Position numbers and translations under genes: made by a program. A model generated the notes under the pieces. That model searched no databases. It saw nothing but the letters and a program-made list of their open reading frames with translations, and was not told where the DNA came from. Positions 29,285-64,000 of a stretch of DNA of 64,000 nt are shown one piece after another. The stretch is taken from contig JAVXUO010002328.1 of NCBI GenBank assembly GCA_033065855.1, forward strand, positions 1 through 64,000. The letters run 5' to 3'. The DNA comes from Escallonia rubra (Eukaryota > Streptophyta > Magnoliopsida > Escalloniales > Escalloniaceae). How positions within the stretch are numbered: the first letter of the stretch is position 1; each line of letters opens with the position of its first letter.

Positions 29285-29990
29285 TCGTTTGCAAATACAG
29301 GAAATTGAATCTGGAAACCAGCAGTTTCTGAACTTCTCTCTCAAAGGTTCATCTTGAAGCTTACCAATTATAATTAAGGCTTGCTAAGATAATTAGATAA
29401 GCCCTTGAGGGAGAGAGTTCAGAGAAAGTTGGGTCTCCAAGGACCTTTCGCAGCCGAATGTCCCAACACAACACACGTAGAGGAGGAAAGAAGGAAGGCA
29501 GAAAAATGGTGGTATATACAGATACATACGAGCTATTTCAGGTCACATTGGTATTGTAAGGAATAAAGTATGTTATGGTAGATGATAAGATGTCTAAATC
29601 CATTTTCTTATACTCCGTATTTGATAATTTCTTGGAAACTCTGCACTGGCTCACACTTGCGATGAAACTTCATCTGCAAGTCCTAAGAAGAACAAGAGGG
29701 AGGGTTGCTGCACTTGCAGCAGAAGTAAAGGATCCCGAGTCATCATTACATGGACACACAGTATTCTAGCATTGCTATTTTGAAGTCTAGTGAGTTATGC
29801 CACGTGCCCTTGGAAGATTTATAGTATAATAATGCATAGGCGTGTAAGGTCCTGATAGGACCATGTAAAAACAATTCTAAAATAAATCAAATGGTTTAGT
29901 GATCGGAAGAGTGTGCTTCTTCCGACCTTTTTTAAAACTATCTACGAGGACTTGATAATATTTTCAAATTTCTTTTCACTTTAAACTTTT
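29285..29990 (+). repeat. Unit 0 of the tandemly duplicated hairpin segment
   Basis: This stretch matches 41226-41930 (unit C) in order: hairpin, then the motif with CGAGGGTTGCTG and GCAGCAGAAGT, then GCATTGCTATTTTTGAAGTC, then the CTTCTTCCGACC region and GAGGACTTGATAATATT. The copies are clearly diverged, with many substitutions and small indels, so the duplication is old. It lacks the rest of the larger units. Confidence 0.7.
29323..29431 (+). ncRNA. miR477-like hairpin H0 (unit 0)
   Basis: The 5' arm (29325-29352, TTCTGAACTTCTCTCTCAAA then GGTTCATC) pairs with the 3' arm (29394-29426, containing AAGCCCTTGAGGGAGAGAGT). There is only one bulge and about three non-pairs, because most differences are G:U pairs. 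The 5' strand CTCTCTCAAAGGTTC closely resembles miR477-5p (core CTCCCTCAAGGGCTTC, recalled from miRBase). The loop is about 40 bases. The stem is long enough for Dicer-like processing. Expression is unknown, and the assignment rests on structure plus family resemblance. Confidence 0.55.
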
Positions 29991-31175
29991 TTCAGTGCTG
30001 TTTAAGTTATATGTACTCTAGTACTCAATCTATTTTTCACTCGTAATCAAATCACGTATATTAGTACATTAATGGACATAGACAATCTATCTCCATTGTG
30101 TTTGCAATGATCAACTCTTATAAAATTATAACACTTTGAGAGTATAAAAGCTTCAATTCACAGATTGAATACACTTTGGTGACTATTTCAGTGAGTTAAA
30201 CAGTTGATTTGATGTATCTAGGATAAGGCTGTTTAGCTGAGATAAACGAATGCGTGCTAACATAAAGTAGGAGCTAGTTTGTGTTGCTGAAGAGGATTAA
30301 TTGATACAAAATTTACCACTTTTATAGTCGAGGTTGCAATCACATAGCCTAAGATCAATCTAATCCAGAGATGCCACGTATCTCAGCGTGCTTGCTTCAT
30401 TTACCCTTCTACTTACATTAAGCTTCTTTGATTTGATATGACTTTGTCGTGTAGAGATGAGATATAGCATCATTTTACCTTCTTACCTAAGTTTTCATCT
30501 GGCCTTCATCATGTTTTTTACATTTTTTCTGATTATGGCACATTGCACTGATAAAACTTCATGCCCGGTATCCACAAGTTACTTGTCATTCCTTTGTTCA
30601 GAAATGGCCACGTGTCATGTAGTCATAGTTGTAATTGATTCGACTATTTTGATAAACAGTCACAGTTTAGCTCTCGAATGAATCAGCCTTTAGTGGAGAC
30701 TTGTCTTCATGTCAATCCTTAACTCCCTCGTGACGTGGTATGTAAATGTCTCGGGGCGAATCAACCTTTGTTATCCCGAGACTCTGCATTTTTACTTGGT
30801 ACATACAATATTTATAAAATAACTGCGGTCAAGGCAGGGGGTTTAAAGCAATGTAGTTTTAATTTTTAAATAAATATATTCAATATGCACCGAATTTCTT
30901 GAGACATGTCACAAAAAAAGAAACAGAATGTAACATCTCCAACGAAGTATGGCCTCATTAGCTAGTGAAAAGTTTTGGTTCATCTTTTAAGAACCAATTA
31001 TTAGCTCATCTCATTTAATTGAGTAAAAATTAAAATACAAAACACAACTTTTGCTTAAACTGCTTAGGTCGGCTATATAATGCCTAGGACTACTAATGTG
31101 CACCATACCTAACACAAATGTCAAGCACAACTTTGCCACTTGAGAGTCTGATCCAAATGGTGAAAAGTGAAGTAT
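29991..31175. other. Intergenic spacer
   Basis: AT-rich, with no recognisable gene or element. The open frame at 30457-30681 shows no family resemblance. Confidence 0.4.
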
Positions 31176-31178
31176 TAA

Positions 31179-31579
31179 GGCTTCGTTTGACAAAACTTTT
31201 TTTTTTGTTTTCAGTTTTTAAAGAACAGTTTTTAAAAAGCAGCTTAATTTTTTTTACAAAAACAAGTGGGTGTTTGATAACCCTTTTTTTTTAGGTTTTT
31301 TTTTTTGTGTTTGGTAACCCTTTTTATTTTGACTTTTTTTGTGGTGGTTTGCGGTGGCGGTGGTGGGGCGTAACGGTGGTCGGCGGCTGGAGGTGGTCTA
31401 AAAAAAAAAAACCAAAAGTGAAAAAAAAAAACCAGTTTTTGGAGATTTTTTTTTTTTACTTTTCAAATTAAAACTGGTTGTTTAAATTGAAAAAAAAAAA
31501 TGGTTACCAAACGCTCCTTTTTTTTTCAATTTTTAAAACTGAAAAAAAAAGAGCAAAAAAAAGAGTGTCAAACCTAGCC
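31179..31579. mobile_element. PIF/Harbinger (Tourist-like) MITE
   Basis: The 401 bp element starts GGCTTCGTTTGACA and ends TGTCAAACCTAGCC, an inverted pair. It is flanked by TAA at 31176-31178 and 31580-31582, the 3 bp duplication of PIF/Harbinger elements. The interior is A- and T-runs around a GGTGG-rich core. No coding capacity. Confidence 0.8.
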
Positions 31580-31799
31580 TAAGAAAACGCATATTGGCCA
31601 GGGAATGGTGACTGTGGAATTTGGTGGCTGGCCTCTAGTAAGCATAGGGCCACTCCCTGACCTTTCGAATAATACTTGTGTTAGAGACTACATTGATAAC
31701 GGTGGATGAGATAGTAAAATTTTTTTTAATCTTTGGCCCCAACCTCTCGTTCACAAAATCTTGACCATCCCGCTCCCTTACTGTCACGACACAGTCGAC

Positions 31800-35060: not shown

Positions 35061-36224
35061 TTTTCAGAAAGAGCATAATCATCTCAATTAAATTTGAAAT
35101 AAAGGAAATATTATAAAAACTCTAACCTACTCTTACGCTGCACTACAATAGCCTTCTTCTCAAACACAACCACATCTCACTCTCTGAAACACACACAATA
35201 CCTAACACTCAAAGTAATAACCACTGAATTCATACATAAAACCTAGCTAGAACACCCAATAACATGGCCAAGATTAAAGAGGGAGGTTAGAGATTTTTAC
35301 TTTGAAATCTTCTTGCCATAGCTTGCTTCTTCTCTCTCTTTAATTTATGTAAAATAAGGTGGCTGCAAAAGCTTGGATGACTGTCCTCTAAAAGTCTCAT
35401 TAATATATGGTTGCCCTAGTTTGGAATATTTCTAAAGACCCCCCTCACACTTAACTATTTTCTTATTTCATCCACATCACTTTAAAAGATTACAAACTCT
35501 TTAGATTAAGATCTAACACAAAGTTTCTTTTGTCAACTAAATAAAATTTCGGGTATTCCAATCTCCCCATCTCATTAATTTGTAACTTAAGAGCATTATA
35601 AATTGTCGATAAAAGTCACAATCAATACAACTGGTGATAATGGTCGCTAAAGACTCCAATTACTGTATATTATCACAACCGCCGCTAAAGAATTAACTAA
35701 AATTTTAGGATTCACCGTAAACCATATTCTAGGTGCGGGGTATTACAATTTAAGTTTTGGTGTCCAACATAAAAGCACACTTATAAGAAGCATAAGACTA
35801 TCAGCTATAAGAACTGATTCTAATCCCCATGTATAATCGATGTATGACTTTTAACAACGATAAAAAAAGAAAGTTGCTCTTTGTACTTTTAATTTGGCTT
35901 GGATTGTTAAAACAAAGAGCTAGTAGCCACCGGTTTCTTGCGCCACCTTTCTTAGTGTCATCCCACTGCCACCGTTACCGCCACTGTAGCCATTGCGGTG
36001 ACCGACTTTTTCTTTTTGAAGAAAGGTTTTTTATGGCAATATAATAGGCAGGTAATCTGTACATTTAATTTGATTTTATGAAGGAAAACCACTAGTTCAA
36101 TGACTAAGGAAGGATGATGTTATTTACTATATATTAAGTGATTCTAGATTGTTGGGATCATTGATCCTGGAGCACCAAAAATTTTCACCTCAACATAGGA
36201 GATATCTCAAAACCTTCTACACTT

Positions 36225-36441
36225 CTACCTCGGATTTCCGTTGACTTATGTTTTGTAAGTTCTTGGTAAACCGCGTTGAAGCTAGACTTTCTTGATGAGG
36301 TCGTCCAATCTTAATACATGAGCACTTACCAATATGTTTCCTTGTATTGTTTGTCCGTATAAACGGGGATAAAACTTAGGACAATGAGATTATGACTAAG
36401 GCGTTTTTGTATTTATTCAGCTCGTCGTCCATGATAGATAG
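36225..36441 (+). repeat. Start of unit C of the duplicated segment (left of the LTR insertion)
   Basis: It carries the module TTCTTGGTAAACC..., then GACTTTCTTGATGAGG and a GTTTGTCCGTATAAACGGG motif. Diverged copies of this module start units A (about 41920) and B (about 54600) and occur again near 46115 and 58040. The unit resumes at 39713 after the LTR element. The segment 35753-36225 to its left has no recognised feature. Confidence 0.7.
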
Positions 36442-36857
36442 TGTTACGAAATCGCTCTAGATAGATATGTATAGAACACGATAACCAAATAAGAAAACAC
36501 AAGAAATATGAGAGAACTCAAATCCACTTTGCACAAGTCAGATTTACAACGCTCCCTTACGTGTATCTCTCAATTGTTTTCCTACTCAAAGAAGGACTCT
36601 TCTTTCTTTGCCTACCCAAAGAAAGACTATCCTCTCTTTCCTACTCAAAGAAGGACTCTTCTTTCTTGGCCTACTCAAAGAAGGACTCTCCTCTCTTGCC
36701 CTTAAACACTATACAAGACACCTTACTTATACTTGGAGAAAGCAGTGATCTTCTCTCTCCAAGCAATGTGGGACAAGATGTCTTATATACTAAGGGCCAA
36801 GTTGCAACCTTCTTTGAGTAATCGATGTGGGACATAAATACAAGACATATATCAACA
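36442..36857 (-). repeat. Left LTR (3' LTR of the element)
   Basis: Starts TGTTACG and ends ATATCAACA on the plus strand. It contains four CTACTCAAAGAAGGACTCTT-type short tandem copies, at about 36585-36690. Short open frames in it recur in the other LTR and are not genes. Confidence 0.95.
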
Positions 36858-36868
36858 ATCTCCACCTT
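36858..36868 (-). other. Polypurine tract of the LTR element
   Basis: On the minus strand AAGGTGGAGAT directly abuts the 3' LTR, the expected position for the plus-strand primer. Confidence 0.7.
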
Positions 36869-36980
36869 GGCTTGTATTAACAAACCATTCCATGAGGAAA
36901 CTGTAATATGCCTTCAGTATCTTCTTCATGTACTCCACCTTGCATCCCCTTTAAAGGTAGGGATGCACTCCACCTTGAGC

Positions 36981-37565
36981 TCAGCAAGAAAGAAGATGAA
37001 TCAAGCTCAAGCAATGCTTGAACTTCTCTGTCGTGACTATCTTTGTGCCCATATCAACTGCGTAGGTTCTCGGCCCTATCTGCCTCTCACCATAGCATAG
37101 CGTCGATCCCTTGTCCAGCTGTAACACTGTAATCCCCTTACGTGCGTCAGCCCCATCCTTGGACACCAACGTGATCATCCACTCCGCCATTATCATCACC
37201 TCGCAATATGGATTAAGCGTAGCGCTTGACTTCTCCATGAAGCCCATCCCAAGCACCACCCCAAGCTCATCCATGTCGATGATGTTGAAGTCGGCCTTTC
37301 TTGTCCATCTGTCGATCCTCAAATCGACGTTCTTGACGACTCCCTTCGTCGGTCGCTCATCGGCATTCATGGCCGTGAACCAACTCCCATCCTTAGTTGG
37401 TTTTAGCCCAAGCCACTCTGTAACCCTCGGACTCATGAAGTTGTGGGTAGCCCCGGTATCCACAAGCGCTTCTTGAGTCTTCCCGACAACATCCACTGCT
37501 GCGTAGAGCAAGCCCCGTCTCTTCTTGCTCTTCTTCCCCTTGGCAGCTTTTTCCTTTGACTTCTA
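36981..37565 (-). CDS. Retroviral-type aspartic protease frame of the LTR element
   Basis: The frame contains ALVDTGATHNFMS, the DTGA active-site motif of gag-derived aspartic proteases, followed about 65 residues later by DELGVVLGMGF. It continues in the same frame as gag, directly after one TAG codon at 37565-37563, through a Lys-rich linker. The first in-frame Met reported is at 37511, beyond the linker. It may be made only by stop read-through, or the TAG may be a mutated Gln codon (CAG). The frame stops about 120 bases before the LTR, and no later pol domain follows. Confidence 0.85.
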
Positions 37566-39146
37566 CACGAACGCATTGACCATCTGCAATGCCCCTATGC
37601 GTGCCTCCCCGTAGCTTCTGGAAGAATCTCCCTTGCTGCTTTTGTGCTTCTCGAGGAACGCAATCATCTTGCCCTTATGCGGGCAATCCTTCCCGTAATG
37701 CGGACATGCACAGTAGAAGCATTCTCTTCTAAGCCCTCCATGAGCCTTGTGGTCACAAGAATCACCCTGTTTGCGACTTTCTCCATGCTTATTCTCCTCC
37801 TTATGATGGCGGTGACGTACCTTGTCCCCACTCCGCTCATCATCGATTGCCTTGGGCGAGCCACTCTTCGACCTACCATCTCCCCCATCTTTGGCACGCT
37901 CGTGCCTTGGAGATCTCGGCCTTTCACGTTGCTTGAAGTCTCCTAACCTCTCGACAATCACCATGGCGGAAGCCAAGTCGTGAGGTTCCCTTCGCCGCAA
38001 CTCTATGGCAACCCATTGTTGCAACCCATCAATGAAGAAGCATAGTCGCTGCCTCTCGGACATCTCTGGTATTTCGAGCATCAAAGCCGAGTACTCCTTC
38101 ACATACTCACAGATGCTCCCTTTTGCCTTAGCCGTCGAAGGTTTATCATCGACGCTATCGGGATAGAACTGCCTTTGTAGTTCACGCTTGAACTTCTCCC
38201 ATGTTTTGACGTCGCACCCATCCGTATAGCGACGCCTCCACCATAAGGCAATCGTATCCGTAAGGTACATGACTGTTGTTTGCACCTTCTTCTCCTCGTC
38301 GATGTCGAGGGCTTCAAAGTACCGCTCCAAGTGCCAAAAGAAGTAATCCACCTGCCTCACCTCTCTCGCTCTATAGTACGATCTCGGCTTCGGCATTTTC
38401 TTTCTCCTTGGCTGCACCGCGATACGCCCCTGCCTCGTAGCTCTTGTAAGCTCCTTCTTACAAGCAGCTAGTTCTTCTTGGAGCTCCATGACTTGTCCCT
38501 TGAGGTCCTTGCGCTGTTGCACCTCCCGCTTGGTGACATGGGCGACCCTCTCCTCGATCAAGTCATCTAGCTCCTCTACGAACACATCGACTTCCCGTTC
38601 CAGCACAGTTAATCGGCTGTCTACCTCCAAGTCATCTAATCTATTAAAGATTAGCTCCACCTGACTTGCGACAGTCCGCTGCACCTTCTCCTCGTCAATG
38701 TCGAGGGCTTCAAAGTACCGTTCCAAGTGCCAAAAGAAGTTATCCACCTGCCACGCCTCTCTCGTTCTATCGTACGATCTCGGCTCCGGCATTTTCTTTT
38801 GTCTTGGCTGCACTGCGATACACCCCTGCCTCGTAGCTCTTGTAAGCTCCTTCTTACAAGCAGCTAGTTCTTCTTGGAGCTCCATGACTTGTCCCTTGAG
38901 GTCCTTGCACCGTTGCACCTCTTGCTTGGTGAAATGGGCGACCCTCTCCTCGATCAAGTCATCTAACTCCTCTGCGAACACATCGAATTTCCTTTCTGGC
39001 ACAGCTAGTCGACTATCTACCTCCAAGTCATCTAATCTATTGAAGATTAGCTCCACCTGACTTGCGACAGTCCGCTGCAAGTGCTCTCCAAGTGCCTCGA
39101 GCTCGCTCCTCGTGCATGCTTTGGCATCCCCTGTCGCACTACTCAA
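37563..39146 (-). CDS. Gag protein of the LTR element (527 aa)
   Basis: The structural nucleocapsid-type protein. A coiled-coil, charged N-terminal half holds a 132-residue tandem duplication (residues about 25-156 and 157-288; 396 bp period, copies at about 38286-38681 and 38682-39077). The retrotransposon gag domain follows (TDTIALWWRRRY and WEKFKRELQRQFYP, about residues 295-345). A charged Arg/Lys/His/Glu stretch and a zinc knuckle C-x2-C-x3-H-x4-C (CFYCACPHYGKDC, about 470) come next. The gag domain is of the Ty3 type. The frame is open throughout and ends in TAG. The duplicated block is unusual, because it repeats the region just before the gag domain. Confidence 0.93.
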   Translation of the reverse strand: MSSATGDAKACTRSELEALGEHLQRTVASQVELIFNRLDDLEVDSRLAVPERKFDVFAEELDDLIEERVAHFTKQEVQRCKDLKGQVMELQEELAACKKELTRATRQGCIAVQPRQKKMPEPRSYDRTREAWQVDNFFWHLERYFEALDIDEEKVQRTVASQVELIFNRLDDLEVDSRLTVLEREVDVFVEELDDLIEERVAHVTKREVQQRKDLKGQVMELQEELAACKKELTRATRQGRIAVQPRRKKMPKPRSYYRAREVRQVDYFFWHLERYFEALDIDEEKKVQTTVMYLTDTIALWWRRRYTDGCDVKTWEKFKRELQRQFYPDSVDDKPSTAKAKGSICEYVKEYSALMLEIPEMSERQRLCFFIDGLQQWVAIELRRREPHDLASAMVIVERLGDFKQRERPRSPRHERAKDGGDGRSKSGSPKAIDDERSGDKVRHRHHKEENKHGESRKQGDSCDHKAHGGLRRECFYCACPHYGKDCPHKGKMIAFLEKHKSSKGDSSRSYGEARIGALQMVNAFV

Positions 39147-39281
39147 ATCCTTTACTGTGCTCTGCCATATGCCAAAATTCGTCTTTCCATCGAATTGTCA
39201 CAGGCATACTTCATGGTCGTGTTGTCTACATATTTATCCTCTCAAATCGATTTCAATTTTGCCAAAAAAATAAACCTGGAA

Positions 39282-39294
39282 GCTCTTGATACCA
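39282..39294 (-). other. Primer-binding site of the LTR element
   Basis: On the minus strand TGGTATCAAGAGC lies 2 bases downstream of the 5' LTR. The first eight bases match the usual initiator-methionine tRNA complement (TGGTATCAGAGC); there is one extra A. Confidence 0.8.
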
Positions 39295-39296
39295 CT

Positions 39297-39712
39297 TGTT
39301 ACGAAATCGCTCTAGATAGATATGTATAGAACACGATAACCAAATAAGAAAACACAAGAAATATGAGAGAACTCAAATCCACTTTGCACAAGTCAGATTT
39401 ACAACGCTCCCTTACGTGTATCTCTCAATTGTTTTCCTACTCAAAGAAGGACTCTTCTTTCTTTGCCTACCCAAAGAAAGACTATCCTCTCTTTCCTACT
39501 CAAAGAAGGACTCTTCTTTCTTGGCCTACTCAAAGAAGGACTCTCCTCTCTTGCCCTTAAACACTATACAAGACACCTTACTTATACTTGGAGAAAGCAG
39601 TGATCTTCTCTCTCCAAGCAATGTGGGACAAGATGTCTTATATACTAAGGGCCAAGTTGCAACCTTCTTTGAGTAATCGATGTGGGAAATAAATACAAGA
39701 CATATATCAACA
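39297..39712 (-). repeat. Right LTR (5' LTR of the element)
   Basis: A 416 bp copy of the left LTR at an offset of 2855 bases, with one visible substitution near 39688. Confidence 0.95.
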
Positions 39713-41225
39713 GATAGGATTGGCAGCTTCGTTTTGTTCGGCTCTTTGTTGCAGTGCATCTCGGATTTTCAAGGTTGTGTTGGGCAAAATTGATGGCTGA
39801 CCTTCTTGCAAGCAAAGGAACTCGACAAACCAGATTATTATTTGTACCTTGAAGACATTCATAGAGAATTGAAAAGCATTTGCATTCGGAAGGCAACAAG
39901 TAAATTCCCCAAGTAATTTTAGGAAAACTGATAATTCGGTGGCAACTTTAAAGCTAGTCCACTCTAAGTTGTATTACACATAGCATTTTAAGTGCCACCG
40001 AAAAAAAAAAATGGAGGGAGCTAGTCCAATTTTACAGTGGGATTAACTTTAAGGGATACTTCATCTTGTATAGTTTTCAACACCTATACTTCAACGTCGT
40101 AATTTAACCCACCAAAGCCCTTTGGACAGTTTATTTAGCTAAAATAGAAAAAGATAGGTCTTGAAACATTGGATTCAACCATATAAGACTCAGTGAGAGG
40201 AAGACGAACGCGATAGGAGAAGGAGTTAAAGGAGACACAGAGTTACTATTATACTAGGATTAACGTACAAGAAATATGTAATCGTTATATTATATTCAAC
40301 GGCGCTAGATGATTGAAACCATGAATTCCGACCGTCCAATAATTTTTACCGGATTAGAGGTTAGAAGGCCAGCTTGGGTTTGCTTGTCTGCCTTCTATTG
40401 GTAGAATGTTAAAGAACTCTGTCGAAGCTTCCAGTTACTGCCAAAAAGAAAAATGGAGTGTTTGCTCATTTAACTTGTCTTGACTTGACTAAAGTTGGCT
40501 TTCTACTTTCATTTAGACAACATCAAGACTTCCCTTTTGTGCATGACCGAATCCTCGCTGACTCTATCTACAGACCTTGAACGAAGTTAATTTCTCCAAA
40601 AATTTGTCTTCAGGAACAATCCTCTGTAGTAATGACGATGAGTCGGCCCTCTGAGCTCCACTTTTACCCTGCAGCTTCGGACGGAGCGCAGCCCAATTCA
40701 CTGCTGAGTAGCTCAAAAAGTCATGCTAACTCCTACTATTACTTAAAGAAATTGCAAGATATGTAGGGCCGAGGCCAGAGAAATAATAGCCCAAGATAGA
40801 AAAGCAGTTTTTATAATTCAAGGTGGGCGAAACTGCAAGTTCTAATGCATTAATTTATCCTGCGATGATTTGTAAAAGATGCATCATGGAAAGATTAAGG
40901 TGGGCAAGTGCCGACCTACGGTTACATGTGGCCTCGCCACACTGACGATATGTCTAGCCCATTTTCCAGACGACCATGCGTGGATCTTCTGATTGTGATC
41001 AAATACAATAGAGACAAACATCATAATGTAAAGAAGATGAAGAACCAAAGCACAAAGAGGCTTTGAATTGAGAGTATGGGTAGGCTTTAATTCCAAGACA
41101 GTCAAGTCAGTGAGTAATGATTTGCTTATCACTAAAAGCATCACCGGGAGATCATTCAATATGCTTCCACGATAGATACCCCTCATGCACGTTCGGACAT
41201 AACATGAATCCCAATGGGGGAAGCC

Positions 41226-41318
41226 AGCTTTTTCTGGACTCTACGTCTCAACGGCTGCTCCAAAAGTTACACAAGGATGATTTGAGTTAGCCGTTGAGGG
41301 AGAGAGTTCAGAGAAAGT
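41226..41318 (+). ncRNA. miR477-like hairpin H1 (unit C)
   Basis: The 5' arm (41229-41261: TTTTTCTGGACTCTACGTCT, then CAACGGCTGCTCC) pairs with the 3' arm (41283-41317, containing TAGCCGTTGAGGGAGAGAGT). About 26 of 33 positions pair. The loop is about 22 bases. The 5' strand CCTCAAGGGCTTC of miR477 is represented by TCTCAACGGCTGC, with a compensating C to G change in the 3' arm. Upstream sequence is shared with H2 and H3, so these are copies of one locus. Confidence 0.5.
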
Positions 41319-41379
41319 TGGATTTCCAAGACTTTTTCGCCGCTGCATGGTTTTCGCCATGTCCATGTATATCTTCTGT

Positions 41380-41383
<4 letters not shown>

Positions 41384-41462
<79 letters not shown>
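41384..41462. repeat. Compound microsatellite (TA)n(GA)n
   Basis: About 17 TA units run directly into about 22 GA units. It is absent from the matching place in units A and B, so it expanded in unit C only. Confidence 0.95.
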
Positions 41463-41466
<4 letters not shown>

Positions 41467-42466
41467 CCATGATGGCATGTTTTTATCCATCTTCTTTTAT
41501 TTGTTATACTTGGAAAACTTCTGCACTTTCAATAGCTCACGCTTGAAAGGATCGAGACTTCGTCTCCAACTCCTCAGAACGAGAGGGTTGCTGTATTTGC
41601 AGCAGAAGTGAAGGACCCCGACCCCGGCTGATTATCATTGCATGGACATACAATATTTCTATAGCATTGCTATTTTTGAAGTCCAGTGGGTTATGGTACA
41701 TGTTTGTAAGGCGCTCTGACACGTTCTTTCTGAAAACTGGTAGATATCTTAATGCGATAGGCATGTCAGGTTTTGACCGAACCATGTTAAAAATATTTCA
41801 AATAATATGAACGGTCTATCTTTTGAGGGAGTGCGCTTCTTCACAGACTCTTTTCAAGACTATATATCTGTGAGGACTTGATAATATTCTCATATTTCTT
41901 TTGGTCTAAGATTTTAGGACTTTCTTGGTAAACCCCGTTGGTTAAAGCTAAAGCTAAGATTTTCTTGGTAAACCCCGTCGGATAAAGCTAAGATTTTCTT
42001 GATGAGGATGATTTAGTACATGAGCACTTATCTATATGTTTCCTTGTACTGTTTGTCTGTACAAACGGGACAATGAGATTATGACAAGCTCGTATTTTGC
42101 ATTTATTCGGTGAGATGCCCATCATAGGATTGGCTGCTTTTGTTTTGGTCGGCTCTTTGTTGGAGGCCATCTCGGATTTTCTAGGTAGTGATGGGCAAAA
42201 TCAATCGCTGACCATCTTGCATGCAAAAAAACTGAACAAAGAGAGATTCATGTGCGCCTTGAAGACATCTTAAGGGAATTGAAAAATATAATAGTACTTA
42301 TTTGCTTATATAAATAGAGTTGCCTTTGGAAAGGCAACCCAAGTAAATTTCCCAAGTAAGTTGAGAGAAGATAATTCCACCGCGAATTGTTACTAGTCCC
42401 CTCTAAATTGTTTCTAAGGAATTACACGACGATACGTGCCTCCAAAATTATTTTTGGAGTGAGTTA

Positions 42467-43302
42467 GAGTGTGCTTGATAACGCAATTAAACACTTAAAA
42501 TTTAAAGTTTTCAATGATTTTCAATTAAGTGCGTTTGATAACGTTAAACTATGCATCTCTTAAAAATATTAATTCCTACAAAAAATAGACTAAAAATTTA
42601 AGTTATGGTGGACTTACTTAATACTGATCACTTAATTCTAAGTGAGATGGTTAAAAGTTATTTAACATATTTTTTAAATAAAAAATAATTACTACCACGA
42701 TGCTGCCTTAATTAATTTGCTGGCAACATGCCTCCACCATAATACAACCACCACCACAACCATTATTTCCTTTTGCTATCACCACCACAATTACCACGAC
42801 CTAGTTACTATCACCACCACCACCGTACACCATCACAAGGCAACGCCACCTTCACCATACCGCCGCTATTGTCACACGTCCATTTCCGCTAAAAACATTT
42901 AAAGATCCACCAAACTACAACTATTGTCATGACCGCCATGTCGCCACCTATCGCTATCATTATGATTACTAACATTACGTTTTCACGCACCATTACCGCC
43001 ATCATTGACAATTTTTTACCGCGACCGCTGTCACCATCACCAGCACTACTCTATTGTCACTGCCACCGCCACCACCAACACGGTTTTAGCCCCTAAAAAA
43101 AGTTATAAAGCACGTAAACAAATGTATAATTTTGGTAAAATGGATAAATTTGTAAATAAACTATTTTCAGACATCTGCTTTTGGTTTACTAAATAGGTTA
43201 ACTTATTTTTCAGTAAAAATTCAGTCGTTTAAAGTTTTCAGTTTTACGAATTCAGTGCTTAACTTTTTCAGCACTTAAATTTCAGTTTTATCAAACAGCC
43301 TT
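42467..43302. mobile_element. PIF/Harbinger-type MITE in unit A
   Basis: The 836 bp element begins GAGTGTGCTTGATAAC and ends TTATCAAACAGCCTT, an imperfect inverted pair. It is flanked by TTA (42464-42466 and 43303-43305). Units B (about 55165) and C (about 40015) have the uninterrupted sequence TGGAGTGATCTAGTCCAA or close relatives, confirming an insertion in unit A only. The core is rich in CACCAC repeats and encodes nothing. Confidence 0.75.

Positions 43303-44172: not shown

Positions 44173-44176
<4 letters not shown>

Positions 44177-44218
<42 letters not shown>
44177..44218. repeat. (GA)n microsatellite
   Basis: A run of about 21 GA units, unit A only. Confidence 0.95.
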
Positions 44219-44222
<4 letters not shown>

Positions 44223-49490: not shown

Positions 49491-49989
49491 ATTTTGGGGT
49501 ATTTAGAGAGATTGTTGTAGTGGTGCATTAAGGGTGTTTGGGGAATTTGGGTGACTGTGATGTGAGGCATGAAAGAGAGGTTTTATATAGCCAAATAAGG
49601 TCAGAGATGTTGACATGTCTTACTATGAACGGGCAAGCTTGGATGTTTTAAGTAACAAAAAGAAGAAAAAGAGGAATAAATGAGAGAGAAAGAAGGTAAC
49701 TTTTGCTGGGTTGATCTAATAAGGGTTTAACCTAAAAGTTCACTTCTAAAAAACCTCAGATTTGTCCCTGAAATAAGTTTGGTATATTGTATTTTGGCCT
49801 CATACACGTAAACATTTCTTCAAGAGGTGTCGGACACGGTTTCGGGTAATTTAAAAGTAAATAAATAAATTCGGACACTGCTGGGAGATTCGAGCACGTC
49901 TTCGGAGGTATCAGTGAGGTTTCGAGGTGCCCGTAGATGTCAGACATCATATGTCGACCTATATAAGGTGTCAGTGATTCCAAGGTTTT

Positions 49990-50290
49990 TATCCGTAAGA
50001 AAGGTGGACAATCTCTTAATCATCTGTTGTTTGATCGTGCAGTTGCTAAAAGAAGTTGGGATTTTGTCTTCAGTACTGTGAGTTTTAGACTTTTAGCTAC
50101 GAAATACTTTATTTTGTACTGGATTTACTGAGGAGCTCCAAGTTTTATAAAAAGACGGAGCGAAAGCAGGAAACTCAAATTCTTAGCTTTTGTTGCATAT
50201 TGCTTGTTTTGGTGCACCTGAAGGGGAGGCATAGGAGAACTTTTCAGGAAATGGTTCTCCTTTTTCGTGTCTGCTATAGCTGAGGAGGTT
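49990..50290 (+). pseudogene. LINE zf-RVT relic (unit A copy)
   Basis: Frames read DHLLFDRAVAKRSWDFVFS and later a VHLKGRHRRTF-like piece. This matches the tail of the plant LINE zinc-finger region (DHLLLHC.VA..LW, then WRERNNRCFED). Frameshifts and stops separate the pieces. The unit B copy is at 63340-63575. Confidence 0.55.
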
Positions 50291-50899
50291 TGATGCAGTT
50301 CTGATCCTATCAAGGTGGTCAACAGATCCATTCATACAACATGCAATGTTTTGAGAAGAATTGCCATTCCTTTAATACAGCTTGATGTTGTGTAATGATA
50401 GCTGATACCTATACTGTTCGTGTACATGGGTGGAACAAGAATATTGCACGATTTGAGAAGACATGGAATAATTCTACTTATCAAAGGAAGAAAAAGGTAC
50501 TCCAACCACTGTAATGAAATTAATCTGGCGTAGAGTGTAACATTATAAGCTTCGGATTGCAAACATGATTTTGAGAAGGATGTTCACGCTCAAATTTTGT
50601 GATTTAGGGATATCTTAACATGAGTCACCGCTGTATGAAAAAAAAATCTATGAAGTGTTCTTATACAGCTATGGTTGTGATTACATAATCTACCTTTGCT
50701 GCCAAACTTGCCAAGGTCTATATCTTGTGAGCAAAGTCCCTCTTTGAAGTATATTTTCTGACCCGGCACTGCATTGAGTGCTTTATAGCATTGCTTCCAA
50801 ATGTACATTTTTACATGAGTTGCCACTGCCTTCAAGTGCTCTAGTCTTTTCATGGTTGTCAACCAAAAACTTTTATAGCTTGAGCCTAGAGTTGGAAGT

Positions 50900-54513: not shown

Positions 54514-56524
54514 CATAGAAGATATTCCGAAGCTTTATACACCTGCACCTCGATGCATGTACTTTCCCCAAGGATTTCTGTTGACTTATGTTTTGCAATT
54601 TCTTGGTAAACCCCGTCAGTTAGAGCTAAGATTTCCTTGATGAGGACGTCCAATCTTAGTACATGTAACATGAGCACTTGTCAATATGTTTCCTTGTACT
54701 GTTTGTCCGTATAGAAACGGGACATTAAGATTATGACAAGCTCGTATTTTGCATTTATATGATAGGATTGGCAGCTTTTGTTGTGGTCGGCTATTTGTTG
54801 GAGCGCATCTCGGATTTTCTTTGTATTGATGGGCAAAATCGATCGCTGACCATCTTGCACGCAAAAAAGCTGAACAAAAAGAGTATTATGTGTGCCTTGA
54901 AAACATCTTAAGAGAATTGTAAAGTACGGAGTAGAGTTGCCCTTGGAAGGCAACCCAAGTAAATTTCGCAAGTAAGTTTAGAGAAATTAATAATTCCACC
55001 ACAAGTTGTTCCTAGTCCGCTCTAAATTGTTACCAGAGAATTACATGACGACATTTGGAATCAGTGTCCGACTTTGTCTCTCTTTCTTTCGATATGATGA
55101 GTAAGGTGGCTGCGGTATCTATCTTTATACCACCTTATGCGAGGACGTGCCACCAAAAATATTATGGAGTGATCTAGTCCAACTTTACAGTGAGAATAAC
55201 TTTAGGGGTATTTTATCTTGTGCAGTTTTCAACACTTATACTTCAATTTGTAATTTAACCCACTAAAGCCCATTAGACAATCCACTTCATCCAGATAATA
55301 CAAAGATGCTTCATAGTTTCGGATTATTGGTCCCAACCGTATAGAATTGTTGAACGAGAGGGAGACGAATGACAAAGGAGAAGGGCCTAAAGGAGACACG
55401 GAGTTATTAGACTATATTTATCGGTAATAGACGATCGGAATCATGAATTTGGGACCATCAAATAAATTTTACCAAATTAGAGGTATACAATCTTATACTT
55501 AATTTTACTATAAGGCCAGCTAGGTTGCATTCTTGCATGCATGTCTATCTTCTATAGGTAGAATGTTAGAGAACTCTATCGAAGCTGCCAACTTTTGTCA
55601 AAAAGAAAAATTGAATGCTGCTCAATTGACTTGTCTTGACTTGACTAAAGTTGGCTTTCTACTTGTATTTGGATAACCAAGACTTCTCTTTTATGAGGGG
55701 GGAAAAACATTCCCTTTTATGCATGTACGCATTCTTGCTGACTCTCTCATCATGCCAATTACAAAAGTGGCATATTCCCTGTTCTTACAGACAGCAAGCT
55801 AAATATACCAAAAAAATGTAACGAACTGAAAATCTTGGAAAAAAAATTGTTTGAAAAAACACCCTGAGATGTGAACTAGGTTAATTTCTTGAACAATCTG
55901 TCTTCTGGAACAATCCTCCAAAGCTTCAGTACGGCCCGTTCTTCATTCGGACATACCGTATCTTTCGAGTGATAAGAGTAACGGTGATGACTTGGCCCTC
56001 TGAGCGTCACTTTTGTCCTGCAGCTTCGGACCGTGCTAACTCCTATTACTTGAAGAAAGCGCAAGATATGTGGGGCGAGGCCAGAGAAATACTCTTTATA
56101 GTGCGCGACCGCTATAGTCGCAGATAATAAAGCAGTCTTTTATGATCGAAAGATTAAGGTCGGAAAGTGCTGACCAGCTCTGGTTATATGTGGCCTCGCC
56201 AGTCGCCACAATGATAATATTTCTTGCCCATCTTCTATACGACGTCCATGCGTGAATCTTCTGACTGTACTTAAATACAAGAGAGAAACATCATACCGTA
56301 AAACAAAATGAAGAACCAAAGCACAAAGAGGCTTTGAGAGCATGGTTAGGTTTCATTCATTCGAAGACATTCAAGTTAATATCCGATGATTGCTTACCAC
56401 TTGTAAAAGCAGCACCTGGAATGGTTGATCATTCAATGCATGGATGCTTCCACGATCTGGCTAAACCCCTTACGTTTGGACATAACATGAGTCCTAATGG
56501 GGAAAGCCAGCTTTTTCTGAACTC

Positions 56525-56570
56525 TGTTGGAAGCGTAATGGGATCACAAACAAATAATTCGAACAACTGC

Positions 56571-56603
<33 letters not shown>

Positions 56604-57116
56604 ACACAAGATTTCTCATACAAGAACTCACTTGAACAAAATATATGTAACTCTCACAAACTTGGTGTTTCACACCTCTCTCAATTTGTTTCTCTTCCTC
56701 ACACACAAGCTGCTGCTTGGTTTTTTCTCTCTCAAAGTAACTCACTCATTCTCTCTTTTTACACAAGCTGCTGCTTGTTTTCTCTCCCAAAATCACTCTC
56801 TAATACTCTCACACACTAAACTTAAAAACAACAAACAAGACTCCATATATATAGAAGGAGTATGTCGGCAACCATGCATTATCTTCTCAAAACTTCCAAG
56901 TCGGCAACTTCATCTTCTCCGACCTTCTTAACCCATGCACTAGTCAAAACATTGCAACCATTTTCAAATTCCATGAGTCGGCAGCCTCCAAATCTCCTTA
57001 TCTTCTTCTTGAGTCGGTTGGCAGCTAGGTGAGTCTTCTAATTGGTAACCTCCTTATCTTTATATTCTTCCAAGTCAACATTTGCAACTCATTTGATGAG
57101 GGTTTGAATTCTAACA
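56525..57116. mobile_element. Solo LTR inserted in hairpin H3
   Basis: The 592 bp LTR starts TGTTGGAAGCG and ends GAATTCTAACA, flanked by the perfect 5 bp duplication AACTC (56520-56524 and 57117-57121). No internal region remains. Units A and C show the uninterrupted site (for example TCTGAACTCTTCGCC in unit A). The LTR contains a (TA)n run at 56574-56601 and a duplicated ACACAAGCTGCTGCTTG motif. It separates the basal from the apical stem of the unit B hairpin. Confidence 0.93.
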
Positions 57117-57200
57117 AACTCTACGCCTCAACGGCTGTTCCAGAAGTTGTACAAGTGGAATTCGAGTTAGCCGTTGAGGGAGAGAATTCAGAGAAAGTTG
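57117..57200 (+). ncRNA. miR477-like hairpin H3 (unit B), basal stem split by a solo LTR
   Basis: The apical stem is retained: 5' arm 57117-57142 (AACTCTACGCCTCAACGGCT, then GTTCC) and 3' arm 57164-57190 (TAGCCGTTGAGGGAGAGAAT). The outer sequence that pairs in H2 (GGGGAAAGCCAG, TTTTTCTG) now lies 600 bases upstream, beyond the solo LTR. One substitution (G to A) occurs in the 3' arm relative to H1 and H2. Dicer-like processing of a plant precursor usually needs the lower stem, so this copy is probably impaired. Confidence 0.5.
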
Positions 57201-57625
57201 GATTTCCAAGACCTTCTCGCTGCACGACTTTCGGTTTTCGCCATGCCCATGTATATATTCTGTATACATATGACAAGAAACGTGTATCTTTTCAGTAATT
57301 TCTCCTTTGGTATTACTCTCATGCATCAAGTAATTATTATGTGGCAACTTCAGCTAGCGCGCATGGCCTCTGAGTAAGTGGAACAAGAAACTTTTCAGCC
57401 CTTAATTAATGCTCATGAATTAGGGAATGGGGGCGTTGCTTCCAACACAACAAAATTTAATCACTTAAACTACCCATCTTCTCGCCAGTCCATGCTAGTA
57501 ATGACATCTCACTCGCTCTGACAACTTCAAATGCACATGATACAATCATGCACCGGTACAACTTGATGAGAGACTTCTAAAAAACCTGCCCCTCGAACTA
57601 GACGTACCTGTATTCATTACCACTC

Positions 57626-57655
57626 AGGTTACCTCCACATTATCGGAGGTAACCT
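57626..57655. repeat. Perfect short inverted repeat, unit B copy
   Basis: The same AGGTTACCTCC arms as in unit A at 45693-45722, with loop ACATTATC. Confidence 0.8.
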
Positions 57656-58916
57656 TCTCAGACCTGTAATGGAGGAGAGCCTTCTAACGTCCTCCCTCCA
57701 CCCTCTTATTGCTAGGCACAGGAAATAGGTCAGTCTTAACAAAAATTCTTCATTCACCCAAAATGTGAAGTGCAAGGACTGCTTGGCAAATGCATTTAAA
57801 ACAAAGAAACACGTACCTTCATGTATGACTGGTACTAACAAGAATCTGCATAAACTTGTAGGGCGTGTGAGGATTTGTATCAGAAAAGAGTTGGGAGGCT
57901 TCTGATATTAATACTGGCATAACCTACAAATTCATGTCCTAGACAAGAAATTATGATGCCCTACACGAGGGACAACACAAAGCTTTATTCCTTGATATGT
58001 GTACTTCTACAAGAATGTTCCTGTAGACCAGTTACTCCTCTTCTTGGTAAACCCAGCCAATTAGAATTAGGTTGTCTTGATGAGGACGTCAAAATTTGGG
58101 CACGAGATTTGTCCTATAAACGGGGCTACAACTTAGGATAATGAGAATACGGCACATTAGCCTTTTGTAGTTTTCCACTTTTCTGTTCTTTGATATTCGA
58201 AGCGTGTAAAGCAAGAGAGTTGCCGAAAAAATCCCTGTTTCGTCAATACCAAAATTGGCAGCTTTAGTTACAGCCGCCTTCTGTACGTAGCTGTGCTGGT
58301 TCAGTTCTGCATCTTCTTGTAGTGAATTTCTTGCCGTATCTCTACTAAAAGTAGTTCAATCAATACCTTGACAGAGCTGGTAGATGGCTGGTGAATCCGA
58401 CCAAATCGTATCCCACTTGTAAATCAGTGTGGTTGACAGTAAAAGCTAGCTAGACGCTCAGTGTGGCTACATTTATAGCTAATGAGAGCGAGTCATACCA
58501 GCTTTGATGTCAGCATAAGGTGTTATTGTAATAACTAGTGACAAGCAGCTTACAGGGATAAACATTGAACTTGTATAAGTTTGCTATGTATGCTCATGTT
58601 AGCTTACGTAAGATTTCCTTAGTAAACCAGCTTAGATTGCTTAAACAAATTTTTGTTACGTATTTTTTTGAACATGCGAGCGTCAGTGACCGCAGAATTA
58701 AAACGAAATTTCGATTAGCAAAACTGACTAGTAGCAAACAAAAGTATGGAAAATCATAAATATCACCTCAGTTACCCGTGGAAGTTCTATTTGCAACATA
58801 TCATATCGCATTATGGTAAACACACGTGTTCGCTCTTCCATTGGCAGGCAAGATCGAGTGGTTGTCACGTGTTTATGCTTGGTAAAGCGAGACAGTCGAG
58901 ACACAACCCCGAAGAG

Positions 58917-59018
58917 CGAGTCTTCAACCGCCCTCAGGGCTTCCAACATTTCAGTTTTTTAAGCCATTTATTAGCTAGCCTGGAATATTGGAAGCCCTTG
59001 AGGGTAGTTGGAAACTTC
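58917..59018 (+). ncRNA. Second miR477-like hairpin H5 (unit B)
   Basis: The 5' arm (58920-58954: GTCTTCAACCGCCCTCAGGG then CTTCCAACATTTCAG) pairs with the 3' arm (58980-59017: CTGGAATATTGGAAGCCCTT then GAGGGTAGTTGGAAACT). Relative to H4 the 5' arm changes A to G (CCACCC to CCGCCC) and the 3' arm changes A to G (GGATAG to GGGTAG), so pairing is kept as strong. The arms are nearly identical in A and B while the loop differs more. Confidence 0.6.
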
Positions 59019-59968
59019 TCCTTATTATTGATAACAAAGGCTTTCTTTTCTATAGCTCACTTCTTAACATGATACAATCCCTTGCTGGTGGCTTATTATA
59101 TAGAGACGGTTGACCTCTACTCTACATTGATTTCATCAGAAAAGCTGATCGAATCCCACCTTGTTAAATGTCTTTATTGAGTTGCTTGCGAATATTCAAA
59201 CTATTAAGACCACTGATAACTAGCTAATGCATGGTTTACTTTTCAACGTTCGCAAAATACACGTGTAAGCAACGTTTTGTAATGTATAGGGTGACACTAA
59301 ATTCAATATTTTATCGTTTTGGGTTAAATGCACACCTCTACAAGGTAGTATTTTATTTTATTTTAGCAACAAAAAATTTCTGAAAGAGTGTAGATTTAGC
59401 AAAAGGGGAGCGGCGCTGGTGGAATGGAAACTAGAATCATGGATGGACTCATCTTTTTACTTCAAGGGTCAAGAGAATAACCGGTAGCTTTCCCATAGGA
59501 AATTAGCCCTTTGATCATACCCAAGAGATCCCTTTTTTCTAAAGATTATGTGCGATTTGAACTTCATTATCGAGGAATGGATTCTCAAGAGAATATTGGA
59601 CACGAACCTGTGAATTGGAAAATTTTTGGTCAGTAAATATTCCATCACTTTTTGGTCGTGAATGTCAAACTAGAGCGATGACGAATATTTGATACAACAA
59701 TCCATATGGATTTCGAAATTATAAAGATATGTATCTTAAATATTCGTACTCGCGACGAGATTACGATTATAAGTTCGAGGCTTGTGGGAGGTTGAATAAT
59801 TGGCTGGATGGATTCTATCCTTCTAACAAACCAAAAAAAAAAAAAAAAAATCCCACCATACATATTCGCAAATAACTTCTAACCATCATAAACACCTCCT
59901 TGGACAAATATTTGTTCTTCCAACTAAAAAAACTTACCCTCGCCAAAACATATTTGCACCCCTCTTCT

Positions 59969-61024
59969 CAGAGGCGGAGCTCCTGCCTGACCGGGGGGGG
60001 CCACGGCACCCCCAACTTTTTGGAAAATTATTTTTTTTAATTATTTTAATTAGATACTCATTTTTTACGTATTTACAAAAATGTCATTATATCGTAACTA
60101 ATTGATTAGGGTTTCTTTTTGTTGTATTCTTTACGCTTTGAGTCACCGGCCGTCATAATCATTTCGTTCTCATTCTTCATTCTTCCAAATCTTAAATTTC
60201 AAATCTCCGAATTACGAAAAAATATGAATTGATCGAGGTGAGTTCTTTTGTTTTAAGTTTAATTCTTGAAGTATTAACAAATTCAATAGTTACGCTACTT
60301 ATCGTATTAATGTATTCAATTGTTACGCTATTTTAATAGTTACGCTATTCATTAGTTTAATTTTTATAGTATTAACGTATTCAATTGTTACACTATTTCA
60401 ATAGTTAAGCTATCGTTAGTTTAATTCTTATAGTATTAGTGTATTCAATAGTTACGAAAAAATACGAACTGAGCAATTTACTATACATTTATCGTACTCA
60501 ATAGTTACGCTAATTATAATATGTTTATTTTTGTAGATGAGAAAGTCAAAGTCACGCACAATTGATTCTTTCTTTCAAACAAAAAATGTTAGCAGTAGCA
60601 ATGTTGATGAATGACTTCCTCCAACCAAGAATGTTAATGATGATAACATTGTCGCACCAATTCCTAATCTTGCTACTGACGTTGAGATTTTGAGTCCAGA
60701 AAGTCGACCTAAAAAATTTCCAAGACTTGAAAGTACGAACGTCAGCAATGATTTTGATTGTGCACATTGAGAAAGATATTGTGAAAACGTTTACTATAGA
60801 CTCGATCATTGATGATTTTCGTGACTATAAAGAACGCCGAGTTCTGCTTTAACCATCAATGTATAGAGTTATTTTTCTTGTTTTGTGAAACCTTGATGAA
60901 CTACATTTAATCTTAGTGTTTTTTTTATTTTTCATGGTTTATGTAAACTCGAACCTTCTTCATTCATTTAGTTAGTCATCAAATTTTTTATGTCTTTTTG
61001 GCCCCCCGGTTAGACTTTCTGGAT
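59969..61024 (+). mobile_element. hAT element (Tip100-like) with transposase remnant
   Basis: It starts CAGAGGCGGAGCTCC. The right side, ending CCCGGTTAGACTTTCTGGAT, is the typical sub-terminal hAT stretch, but the final CCGCC..CTG is lost. CTCTTCT flanks both ends, a near-complete 8 bp duplication. Unit A (about 48030) has the empty site. A C-run and A-run at 61032-61054 follow. It is a deletion derivative. Confidence 0.7.
60539..60830 (+). pseudogene. N-terminal remnant of a TTF/MYM-type hAT transposase
   Basis: ATG at 60539 opens MRKSKSRTIDSFFQTK, the typical start of the zinc-finger MYM type 1-like hAT proteins of plants. A stop follows after about 24 codons. The frame then continues with NVNDDNIVAPIPN and ESRPKKFPRLE before further stops. 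The TTF zinc finger and the catalytic region are missing. Confidence 0.75.
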
Positions 61025-61588
61025 CTCTTCTCCCCCCCCCCAAAAAAAAAAAAAAAGAATCTCTTTTGGTACATGATGTAGGAAATAATACGTGGCCACT
61101 TTTAGCGTGAACTTGTCACGTTTAGGCGACCACGATCTATTTGGATCAGACATCTAATTCAGTTCACCTCGTTTCCCTTCATGTGGTGAGTATCCTTGCT
61201 TTTTCAGAATTCCGTCAGAGGATAATCACCAATTGATTGTCTTCCATTAGGAAAAAGGTAGGCTCTCCCATGTTCGGGTACATTTAAGCCTCAATATTCT
61301 CGAGTTCTCCTCTCCCATATGATGATCTTCCGTATCGCTGTGCCCGTACGTGCCTCCATACGGCTGTGCTAATTGCGATGTCCCCATATTTTGTCCAAAC
61401 AACACCAATTCAAGAAAAATTTTGGTGTCACTTACCGGCAATTTAATGAGTTTTAACTTCGAGTTTTCAATCGGTGAATAAAAGAGTTAGAAACATTTTG
61501 TTCAAACCCGAGTCAATCACAACGGTATAATAGGGTTGGTCAGGCATGAGAAGCCACCAAACTCGTCCGGCCCATTCAATTTGTTTTA

Positions 61589-62307
61589 CAAGGGCGGACC
61601 ACCCCCATGACTGTGGTGTGGTGGTGGTGGTGGTGGTGGTGGGGGGGGGGGGGGGGGGGGGGCATGACACCCCTCAAATTTTTTGGAATTTTTTTTTAGT
61701 TTCATAGATAATGAGTAAACATAATTAAAATATTTAAAATGTTTACAAAATTTCATTATATTGTAACATTAATTTATTATGATTTCATTTTGTTGTGTCT
61801 TTTACTCTTTGTACCCTATCATAGTTTTTATCTTTGTCATTTTTTTGCTTTATCTTCATTCTTCTAAATTCAAAATGCTAGAAATCAACATTACAAAAAA
61901 AAAAAAGAAAGAATAGATTAAGGTTCGTTCTTTTTTTTATTTAGTTTAAATTCTTATAGTTGGTTGACTTATACGTAACTAATGTACTCATATAGTTATT
62001 AATCACATTAATAATATATTTATATAGTAAGAGTTAAGCTTTTCTCATGCAAAATTAGAAATTTATTGTTGACGAACCTTAGCAAGTTAAATAAATCACT
62101 ATGTTAGTGAAAATATATATTGTTAGTAGTTAAATTGAGTAATCTATTTTGTATTTAACGGATTCAATAGTGACGCTAATTATAATGTGTTTTTGATTAT
62201 ATATTTTATGTGAACTTGAGCCTTTTGAATCCTTTTGTGTTCGCCATCAAAATTTTCTTTTATGATTTTTTAGCGCCCCCGATTTAGACTTTCTGAATCT
62301 GTCCATG
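61589..62307. mobile_element. Deleted hAT element in unit B
   Basis: The 719 bp element starts CAAGGGCGGACCAC and ends CTGAATCTGTCCATG, degenerate Tip100-like ends. It is flanked by a perfect 8 bp duplication TTGTTTTA (61581-61588 and 62308-62315). Unit A has the empty site (TTGTTTTATCACA at about 48636). No transposase. Confidence 0.8.
61617..61662. repeat. (GGT)n followed by a run of about 22 G
   Basis: GTGGTGGTGG repeats run straight into a long poly-G tract inside the hAT element. Runs of this length are prone to error in assembly and are a G-quadruplex candidate. Confidence 0.9.
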
Positions 62308-62539
62308 TTGTTTTACCAAATTAGTCCTTACTACGTACCTTGTGTTTTTCCTTTAGATTGGCTGTAACATCTGGCCCGTCACCTACAGTCATAAGTGTTA
62401 GTTACACAAAAAAACACTCAAATCAAATGCATCACCTTCCCCCCTTTCTAAGACCTCCCAAACCCAAAACCCTAATCTCCCCTCCAAAACCCCAACCTTC
62501 TCATTCCCTCTCTTAAAAACCCACAAACACCCCCACCAT

Positions 62540-62930
62540 CTCCACCAAATTCTCTCCAATGCCATCACCCCTTAATATCCAGCAAGCTTCTCCACCAGTC
62601 TCTCTCTTTTCCCCAAACTGCCCATTCCTGGAATACAATGTTCCAAGTCTAATCTCACAGCTCAATATCCCTCAATAAGTAATCCTCTTTTACAACCAGA
62701 TGATCCGAAACGGCACCGTCCCGGATGAGTACACCTTTCCTTCTGTCTTCAAAGCTTGCGTTAGACTTTGTGTTTTAAATAAAGGCGAAGAGATTCATTG
62801 TTTGTGTGTGGAATTAGGGTTGCATTTAGATGTTTCCGTGCAAAATGCACTTATTTCGATGTTTTTTCAGTTTGCGGTTGTTGAATTAGCCAAAAAGTGT
62901 TTGATATGGTGGATAGGGTGACGTTGAGCA
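62540..62930 (+). pseudogene. PPR-protein relic (unit B copy)
   Basis: A frame from 62700 reads MIRNGTVPDEYTFPSVFKAC, then RLCVLNKGEEIHC and VQNALISM. This is a pentatricopeptide-repeat (PLS-type organelle RNA-editing class) segment of about two motifs. A frameshift near 62895 changes the expected KVFDMV.RVT into KCLIWWIG and a stop. No upstream transit peptide or further repeats follow, so it is a truncated relic. Confidence 0.85.
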
Positions 62931-63339
62931 GGTATTTTTAAATAGACAGATGCATCTGTAAATAAGGTCACAAATGTTGGCATATCTTAGTTTGGATGCT
63001 TTAAGTAACAAAAAGAATGAAAATAGAAATAGATGAGAGAGACAAAAAGTAAATTTTGCTAGGTCGATCTGATAAGGATTTGACCTAAAAATTCACTTCT
63101 AAAAAACCCCAAATTTGTCCTGAAATAAGTTTGGTACATTGTATTTTGGCCTCATACGCGTAAACACTTCTTTAAGAGGTGTCGGACACGGTATTGGGTA
63201 ATTTAAAAGTAAATAAACAAATTCGGACACCGCTGAGAGGTTTGAACAGGTGTCCAGACCTATCGGTGAGTTATTGGACACAATATATCCACCTATATGA
63301 GGTGTCGGTGCTTCCTAGGTTCTTTCTCTGTTAGAGAGG

Positions 63340-63580
63340 CGGGGAGACTCTTGATCATCTGTTGTTTGATCTTGCAGTTGCTAAAAGAAGTTGGAATTTT
63401 ATCTTTAGTATCATGCCTTTTAGACTATCAGTTACGAAATACTTTATTTGTGCTGGATTTGCTGAGGAGCTCCCTTTTCTCAGCTTTTGTTGCATATTGC
63501 TTGTTTCGGTGCACTTGAAGGGGAGGCATAGGAGAACTTTTCAGGAAATAGTTCTCCCTTTTCGTGTCTGCTAGAGCTGA
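63340..63580 (+). pseudogene. LINE zf-RVT relic (unit B copy)
   Basis: The frame reads DHLLFDLAVAKRSWNFIFS and then CCILLVSVHLKGRHRRTFQ. This follows the LINE pattern of a zinc-finger tail and the WRERNNR.FED-like motif. It matches the copy at 49990-50290 and is broken by frame changes. Confidence 0.55.
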
Positions 63581-64000
63581 GGAGGTTTGATGCAGTTCTG
63601 ATCCTATCAAGGTGGTCAACAGATCCATTCATACAACATGCAATGTTTGAGAAGAATTGCCATTCCTTTAATACAGCTTGATGTTGTGTATTTATAGCTG
63701 ATACGGTATACCGTTCGTCTACATGGGTGGAAAAATGTACTCCAACCACTGTAATGAGAATAATCTGGCGTATAGTGTAACATTATAAGCTTCGGATTGC
63801 AAACATGATTTTGAGAAGGATGTTCACGCTCAAATTTTGTGATTTAGGGATATCTAAACATGAGTCATCGCTGTATGAAAAAAACGTATGAAGTGTGCTT
63901 ATACCGCTATGGTTGTGATTACGTAATCTATCTTTGCGGCCAAACTTGCGGAGGTATATTTATCTTGTGAGCAAAGTCCCTCTTGTATATTTTCTGCATT

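Follow-up and report, generated by a model that had tools for sequence, protein, structure and literature searches.

A probable MIR1446–MIR477 type locus in Escallonia rubra, copied into four units and partly decayed by retroelements

What kind of locus is formed by six hairpins lying in four duplicated units of a 64,000-nucleotide stretch of Escallonia rubra DNA (the whole stretch that we analysed, hereafter the window), and do these hairpins represent one microRNA family or two? A preliminary description had seen an array of hairpins of a single miR477-like family grown by tandem duplication, and had named folding of each hairpin and self-comparison of the window as ways of checking this. 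We consider it likely that the array is a plant locus of the MIR1446-MIR477 type in which duplication produced four units and retroelements caused partial decay, and whose minus-strand transcripts would give rise to miR1446 and miR477 and thereby to cleavage of GRAS transcripts. Feature coordinates are collected in Table 1.

Self-BLAST of the window revealed blocks in direct orientation whose order is preserved across units, and together with Rfam searches and folding this establishes four units of one shared orientation (0, C, A, and B) holding six hairpins in total. The duplicative growth of a MIRNA array is well supported by these blocks and hairpins. The longest block joins positions 45192–48036 of unit A to 57117–59967 of unit B (80.6% identity, E = 0), and a global alignment of 44380–48040 in A to its counterpart in B yields 87.5% identity over aligned bases (3042 of 3478). 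The A and B copies may be called old, by which we mean only this divergence of their sequences. Homology of C to A and B comes in pieces between 36221 and 41388. Unit 0 matches C over 29388–29976/41276–41902 (63.9%, E = 1.7e-46) and A over 29297–29462/45157–45305 (69.8%, E = 8e-14), and so shares no more than about 0.7 kb. Further upstream from the first hairpin, in the minus-strand sense, units 0 and C are alike, and neither resembles A or B; the units thus have orientation and order in common, as had been claimed, but share them unequally. The first hairpin was found in all four units and the second in A and B, again as described before, except that an insertion splits the first hairpin of B. 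Units 0 and C both lack the second hairpin, and in C the BLAST homology to A and B stops near 41388. On the same strand, 1679 and 1710 nt separate MIR477 from MIR1446 in A and B, respectively, so that the two genes are neighbours there, as in the poplar clusters. Unit B may continue beyond the end of the window. The A/B block 50490–50760/63730–63996 is 91% identical in self-BLAST, above the blocks next to it, and ORFs that overlap it have no match in Pfam.

Table 1. Positions of the duplicated units and of the features within them, numbered from the first base of the window.
Feature	Position	Strand	Remarks
Unit 0	29297..29976	-	extent of homology to C; to A over 29297-29462; self-BLAST
Unit C	36221..41902	-	LTR element interrupts it; over 41498-41902, homology to unit 0 only; self-BLAST
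Unit A	41961..50760	-	extent of homology to B; self-BLAST
Unit B	54561..63996	-	extent of homology to C and A; self-BLAST
MIR1446-type hairpin, unit 0	29313..29437	-	candidate mature 29405-29424; 17 exact bases of published miR477 on same arm
MIR1446-type hairpin, unit C	41219..41326	-	candidate mature 41294-41313; 6 unpaired mature bases
MIR1446-type hairpin, unit A	45174..45280	-	candidate mature 45248-45267
MIR1446-type hairpin, unit B, larger piece	57117..57206	-	candidate mature 57174-57193; rest of 3' arm at about 56502-56524, past insertion
MIR477 hairpin, unit A	46961..47061	-	miR477-like 5' arm at about 47033-47053; RF00780, 75.8 bits
MIR477 hairpin, unit B	58918..59018	-	miR477-like 5' arm at about 58990-59010; RF00780, 76.6 bits
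592-bp insertion in first hairpin of unit B	56525..57116	.	TG...CA ends; AACTC on either side
LTR element inside unit C	36442..39712	-	LTR pair 99.76% identical (416 bp); GATAG as target duplication; ORFs for gag and aspartic protease
TATA-like motif upstream of MIR477, unit A	47135..47142	-	weakly indicated
TATA-like motif upstream of MIR477, unit B	59095..59102	-	weakly indicated

Folding bore out all six hairpins, each of which did better than every one of its own 200 dinucleotide shuffles (z from -4.3 to -7.8); the sequence folded for the first hairpin of B contains 11 bases of the insertion. At curated Rfam cutoffs, the window holds exactly two matches, both to MIR477 (RF00780, gathering score 65 bits), namely the second hairpins of A and B. 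The E-values of this pair are 5e-16 and 9e-16, and the minus strand scores clearly better than the plus strand (76.6 versus 55.3 and 75.8 versus 50.4 bits). The four first hairpins match MIR1446 (RF00954) at a relaxed E-value, with 56.6, 47.1, 45.2, and 29.3 bits on the better strand (E = 1.5e-10, 9.6e-8, 3.3e-7, and 0.016). Since all four stay below the RF00954 gathering score of 70, we name them MIR1446-type and do not treat them as certified members. Among the four first hairpins, only that of unit 0 was listed against RF00780, with 25.8 bits on the plus strand and below the gathering score. The notion that all six are simply MIR477 was rejected because the four first hairpins fail this model. 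By current catalogues, the single miR477-like family of the preliminary description therefore resolves into four MIR1446-type hairpins and two that pass the MIR477 cutoff.

A search of positions 1–29000 found no Rfam family reaching an E-value of 0.1, and a model trained on the four first hairpins revealed no fifth copy in the window: its 10 matches at E ≤ 10 were the four hairpins, their four reverse strands, the arm split off in B (56502–56535), and one stretch over a (GA)n run (E = 0.08). The lack of further hairpin copies in the window is one of the points that make it very improbable that inverted-repeat transposons, or inverted repeats feeding 24-nt siRNAs instead of miRNAs, account for the hairpins. 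Such a reading would agree with long hairpins that are well paired on both strands and with the many transposon pieces in the region, but the hairpins lie in duplicated units that have long flanks in common, match curated miRNA families, and contain published miRNA sequences. MITE-type transposons were rejected because of these long common flanks.

From the Rfam score alone the strand of the first hairpins is not decidable, the plus strand being slightly ahead of the minus strand in A (56.6/54.0 bits), C (45.2/39.2), and B (29.3/26.9). As probes for the mature sequences we used the published miR1446 and miR477 of Nicotiana attenuata (PMC3502350). The miR1446 probe agrees with the minus-strand 5' arm at 19 of 20 positions in units 0, C, and A and at 18 of 20 in B, the first base being mismatched in all four. 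Its match scores are 38, 38, 38, and 33 on the minus strand and at most 28 on the plus strand, so that the mature match favours the minus strand. Cassava mes-miR1446b, for which a shifted register of the cut is reported (PMC4730657), agrees at 21 of 22 positions in C and A and at 20 of 22 in 0 and B. The exact match to published miR477 begins at its 6th or 7th base in the MIR477 hairpins of A and B.

The mature 20-mer is the same in units 0, C, and A. When 0 is compared with A, 9 of 227 20-base windows are fully conserved (mean 13.0 matches); these nine overlap and begin at the mature sequence (45248–45256), whereas in the 3' arm 29 of 42 positions agree. C and A have an identical 46-base 5' arm and a 3' arm with 41 of 46 matches; their flanks are about 92% alike too (60/64 and 52/57), and the fully conserved windows (39 of 227) are not the mature ones alone. 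Between A and B, 2 of the 64 bases in the MIR477 arms are changed, versus 12.5% over the aligned region, a degree of conservation matched by 43 of 3500 similarly spaced window pairs with the pair itself counted. Taken as a pattern of sequence, this conservation is modest and compatible with a constrained guide strand.

In a plant miRNA precursor, the duplex is well paired, with five or fewer mismatches. Unpaired mature bases number 1 and 2 in the MIR477 hairpins of A and B, respectively, and 2 in the first hairpin of A, 3 in 0, 6 in C, and 3 in B, where the lower stem is lost. The insertion responsible for this loss leaves an upper duplex that is still able to pair; in the predicted fold, the first mature bases pair with insertion-derived sequence. 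Its ends and flanking repeats (Table 1) point to a solo LTR, and the same site is empty in A and C, where the hairpin is uninterrupted. The LTR element inside unit C is young. Its gag is of the Ty3 capsid type, no reverse-transcriptase domain was found in the ORFs tested, and a 396-bp stretch within it is tandemly doubled (38289–39079, 92%). Damage of this kind raises the question of whether the hairpins were merely copied, with most copies having lost expression or processing and, at best, only unit A and the MIR477 of B still functional. The cut first hairpin of B, the poorly paired duplex of C, the position of all four first hairpins under the RF00954 cutoff, and the retroelements within units B and C all agree with such a decaying array. 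We nevertheless regard it as unlikely, given that the mature 20-mer is the same in 0, C, and A even though 0 and A are about 70% alike elsewhere.

If the array is a working MIR1446-MIR477 locus, as we prefer, RNA polymerase II would transcribe it from the minus strand. Dicer-like 1 would then cut the transcripts into miR1446 from the 5' arm in units 0 and A, possibly in C, and hardly in B, and would yield miR477 from units A and B. The motif TCTATATAATA lies upstream of the folded stretch in both MIR477 copies, at 71 and 74 bases, and hints weakly at a promoter of these copies. No TATA-like motif was found upstream of MIR1446 in A, and that of unit C sits within a (TA)n run. By analogy with poplar, both miRNAs would guide cleavage of the mRNA of a GRAS (DELLA-like) transcription factor; the sequence itself shows the duplication, six hairpins, their family matches, conservation of the 5' arm, and one broken copy, whereas transcription, processing, and this target are inferred. 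According to the poplar study, miR1446 and miR477 both target one DELLA-like GRAS gene, with cleavage validated for each (Merchan 2009, PMC2812943). GRAS genes are also named in Eucommia, as the predicted target of miR477a (with bHLH for miR477b; PMC5099690), and in citrus, among the listed targets of miR1446 (with a glycosyltransferase for miR477; PMC4634795). Other targets on record are weak, non-GRAS ones of miR1446 in a poplar degradome (PMC3630063), a reductase for miR1446 in tomato (PMC12428225), and sucrose synthase for miR477 in poplar (PMC9100975). Targeting of GRAS as in poplar appears most likely.

Two catalogued families that share a GRAS target in poplar could be one family separated by a shift of register, and the hairpin of unit 0 makes this question testable. 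When the N. attenuata miR477 was scanned over both strands of the whole window (60-base stretches in steps of 20), the six best places were the six hairpins, with scores of 34 (unit 0), 28, 27, 27, 27, and 26; the next were 21 and 21, on the reverse strands of the MIR477 hairpins, and then 20. The earlier impression of miR477-like hairpins is partly borne out by this coincidence. The best match of all is the MIR1446-type hairpin of unit 0, in which 17 exact miR477 bases overlap miR1446 in one arm, the miR477 register beginning about 8 bases further in than that of miR1446 (29424). Shuffles of the hairpin reached the miR477 score in 0 of 10000 cases for units 0 and B, in 2 for C, and in 3 for A. 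A divergent miR477, cassava miR477j, misses the six hairpins when run over the whole window: its best place lies near 30681 (score 23), with 20 to 22 for the first hairpins and only 17, on the reverse strand, for the MIR477 hairpins. The published mature miR1446 and miR477 of N. attenuata are as alike as 67 of 10000 shuffles, and cassava miR1446b and N. attenuata miR477 as 16 of 10000.

We looked for MIR1446–MIR477 homology across entire precursors, and the comparisons, at best suggestive, did not show it. In gapped comparisons of whole hairpins, 4 to 56 of 1000 shuffles reached the score (five of eight pairs). Short local comparisons were equalled by 0 and 6 of 1000 shuffles when unit 0 was involved and by 46 to 193 of 1000 in the six pairs without it. 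The Rfam consensus strings of MIR1446 and MIR477 gave no relation (273 of 2000 shuffles as good), nor did those of RF00954 and RF03477 (703 of 2000). No statement of a relation between MIR1446 and MIR477 was found in the accessible text of the open-licence literature searched.

We tentatively propose, at somewhat less than an even chance, that MIR1446 and MIR477 are one family whose divergence came about by tandem duplication and by a change in the register at which Dicer cuts, unit 0 being a surviving composite in which a single 5' arm would encode both miRNAs in overlapping registers. Had the two arisen separately, both out of pieces of one GRAS target gene, they would share a core without descent of one from the other. 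That both poplar miRNAs target one GRAS gene (PMC2812943) suits such origins, as does the at best suggestive likeness of the precursors beyond the core (4 to 56 of 1000; 273 of 2000 for the consensus strings). The 17 exact miR477 bases in a hairpin that is otherwise MIR1446-type (0 of 10000 shuffles) speak against them, and we see separate origins as possible, at a chance below even.

Of the 27 listed ORFs of at least 100 aa in the 29–64 kb region, 17 were scanned against Pfam. Domains above the cutoff were a transposon gag, on an ORF that also matches RILP, an aspartic protease, and zf-RVT; B12D and RVT_3 fell below it. As far as these 17 ORFs go, the region was fairly described as holding hardly any intact protein genes. 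An ORF at 52260–52619 on the minus strand, between units A and B, has a weak, below-cutoff match to B12D/MLRQ subunit (E = 0.048) and no second copy within the window; it may be a real gene exon. Also between A and B, the ORF at 53389–54162 (plus strand) carries the reverse-transcriptase zinc-binding domain (zf-RVT) and is probably a relic of a non-LTR retroelement. Left of the array lie a Tudor-domain exon (18953–19471, plus strand), which presumably comes from a Tudor-SN type gene, and a calnexin exon (24563–25747, minus strand; Pfam Calreticulin). Among the 120 matches listed of 7709, the closest to the calnexin exon is from Escallonia herrerae (97%, 364 of 377 residues), and the other listed matches reach at most 90%, which, for this one protein, fits a source in or near Escallonia among the campanulid asterids.

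How, then, does the array compare with known systems? The second hairpins of A and B both exceed the gathering score of the Rfam MIR477 family (RF00780), and differ from published miR477 in the 5' part of the mature region. The first hairpins share with Rfam MIR1446 (RF00954) the hairpin layout and the mature 5' arm, but all four remain below its gathering score of 70. Poplar ptr-miR7009, which from its sequence we read as miR1446, is entered three times on LG_XII and once on LG_XV, with a table value of 5 in a column taken to be loci (Barakat 2007, PMC2270843); compared by this table alone, the likeness to the Escallonia array consists in several loci on one linkage group. The arrangement, which had been thought undescribed, is on record in poplar, where MIR1446b-477a and MIR1446a-477b were published as clusters of non-homologous miRNAs (Merchan 2009, PMC2812943). 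As in Escallonia, MIR1446 there adjoins MIR477 and occurs in multiple copies; unlike the poplar loci, the Escallonia array has four duplicated units, two of which are without MIR477, and one MIR1446-type hairpin cut by the putative solo LTR. The kind of locus is thus already known, and it is of mild interest that a single place shows copies of a known miRNA gene pair undergoing duplication, disruption by transposons, and loss. What sets the Escallonia array apart is the composite arm of unit 0.
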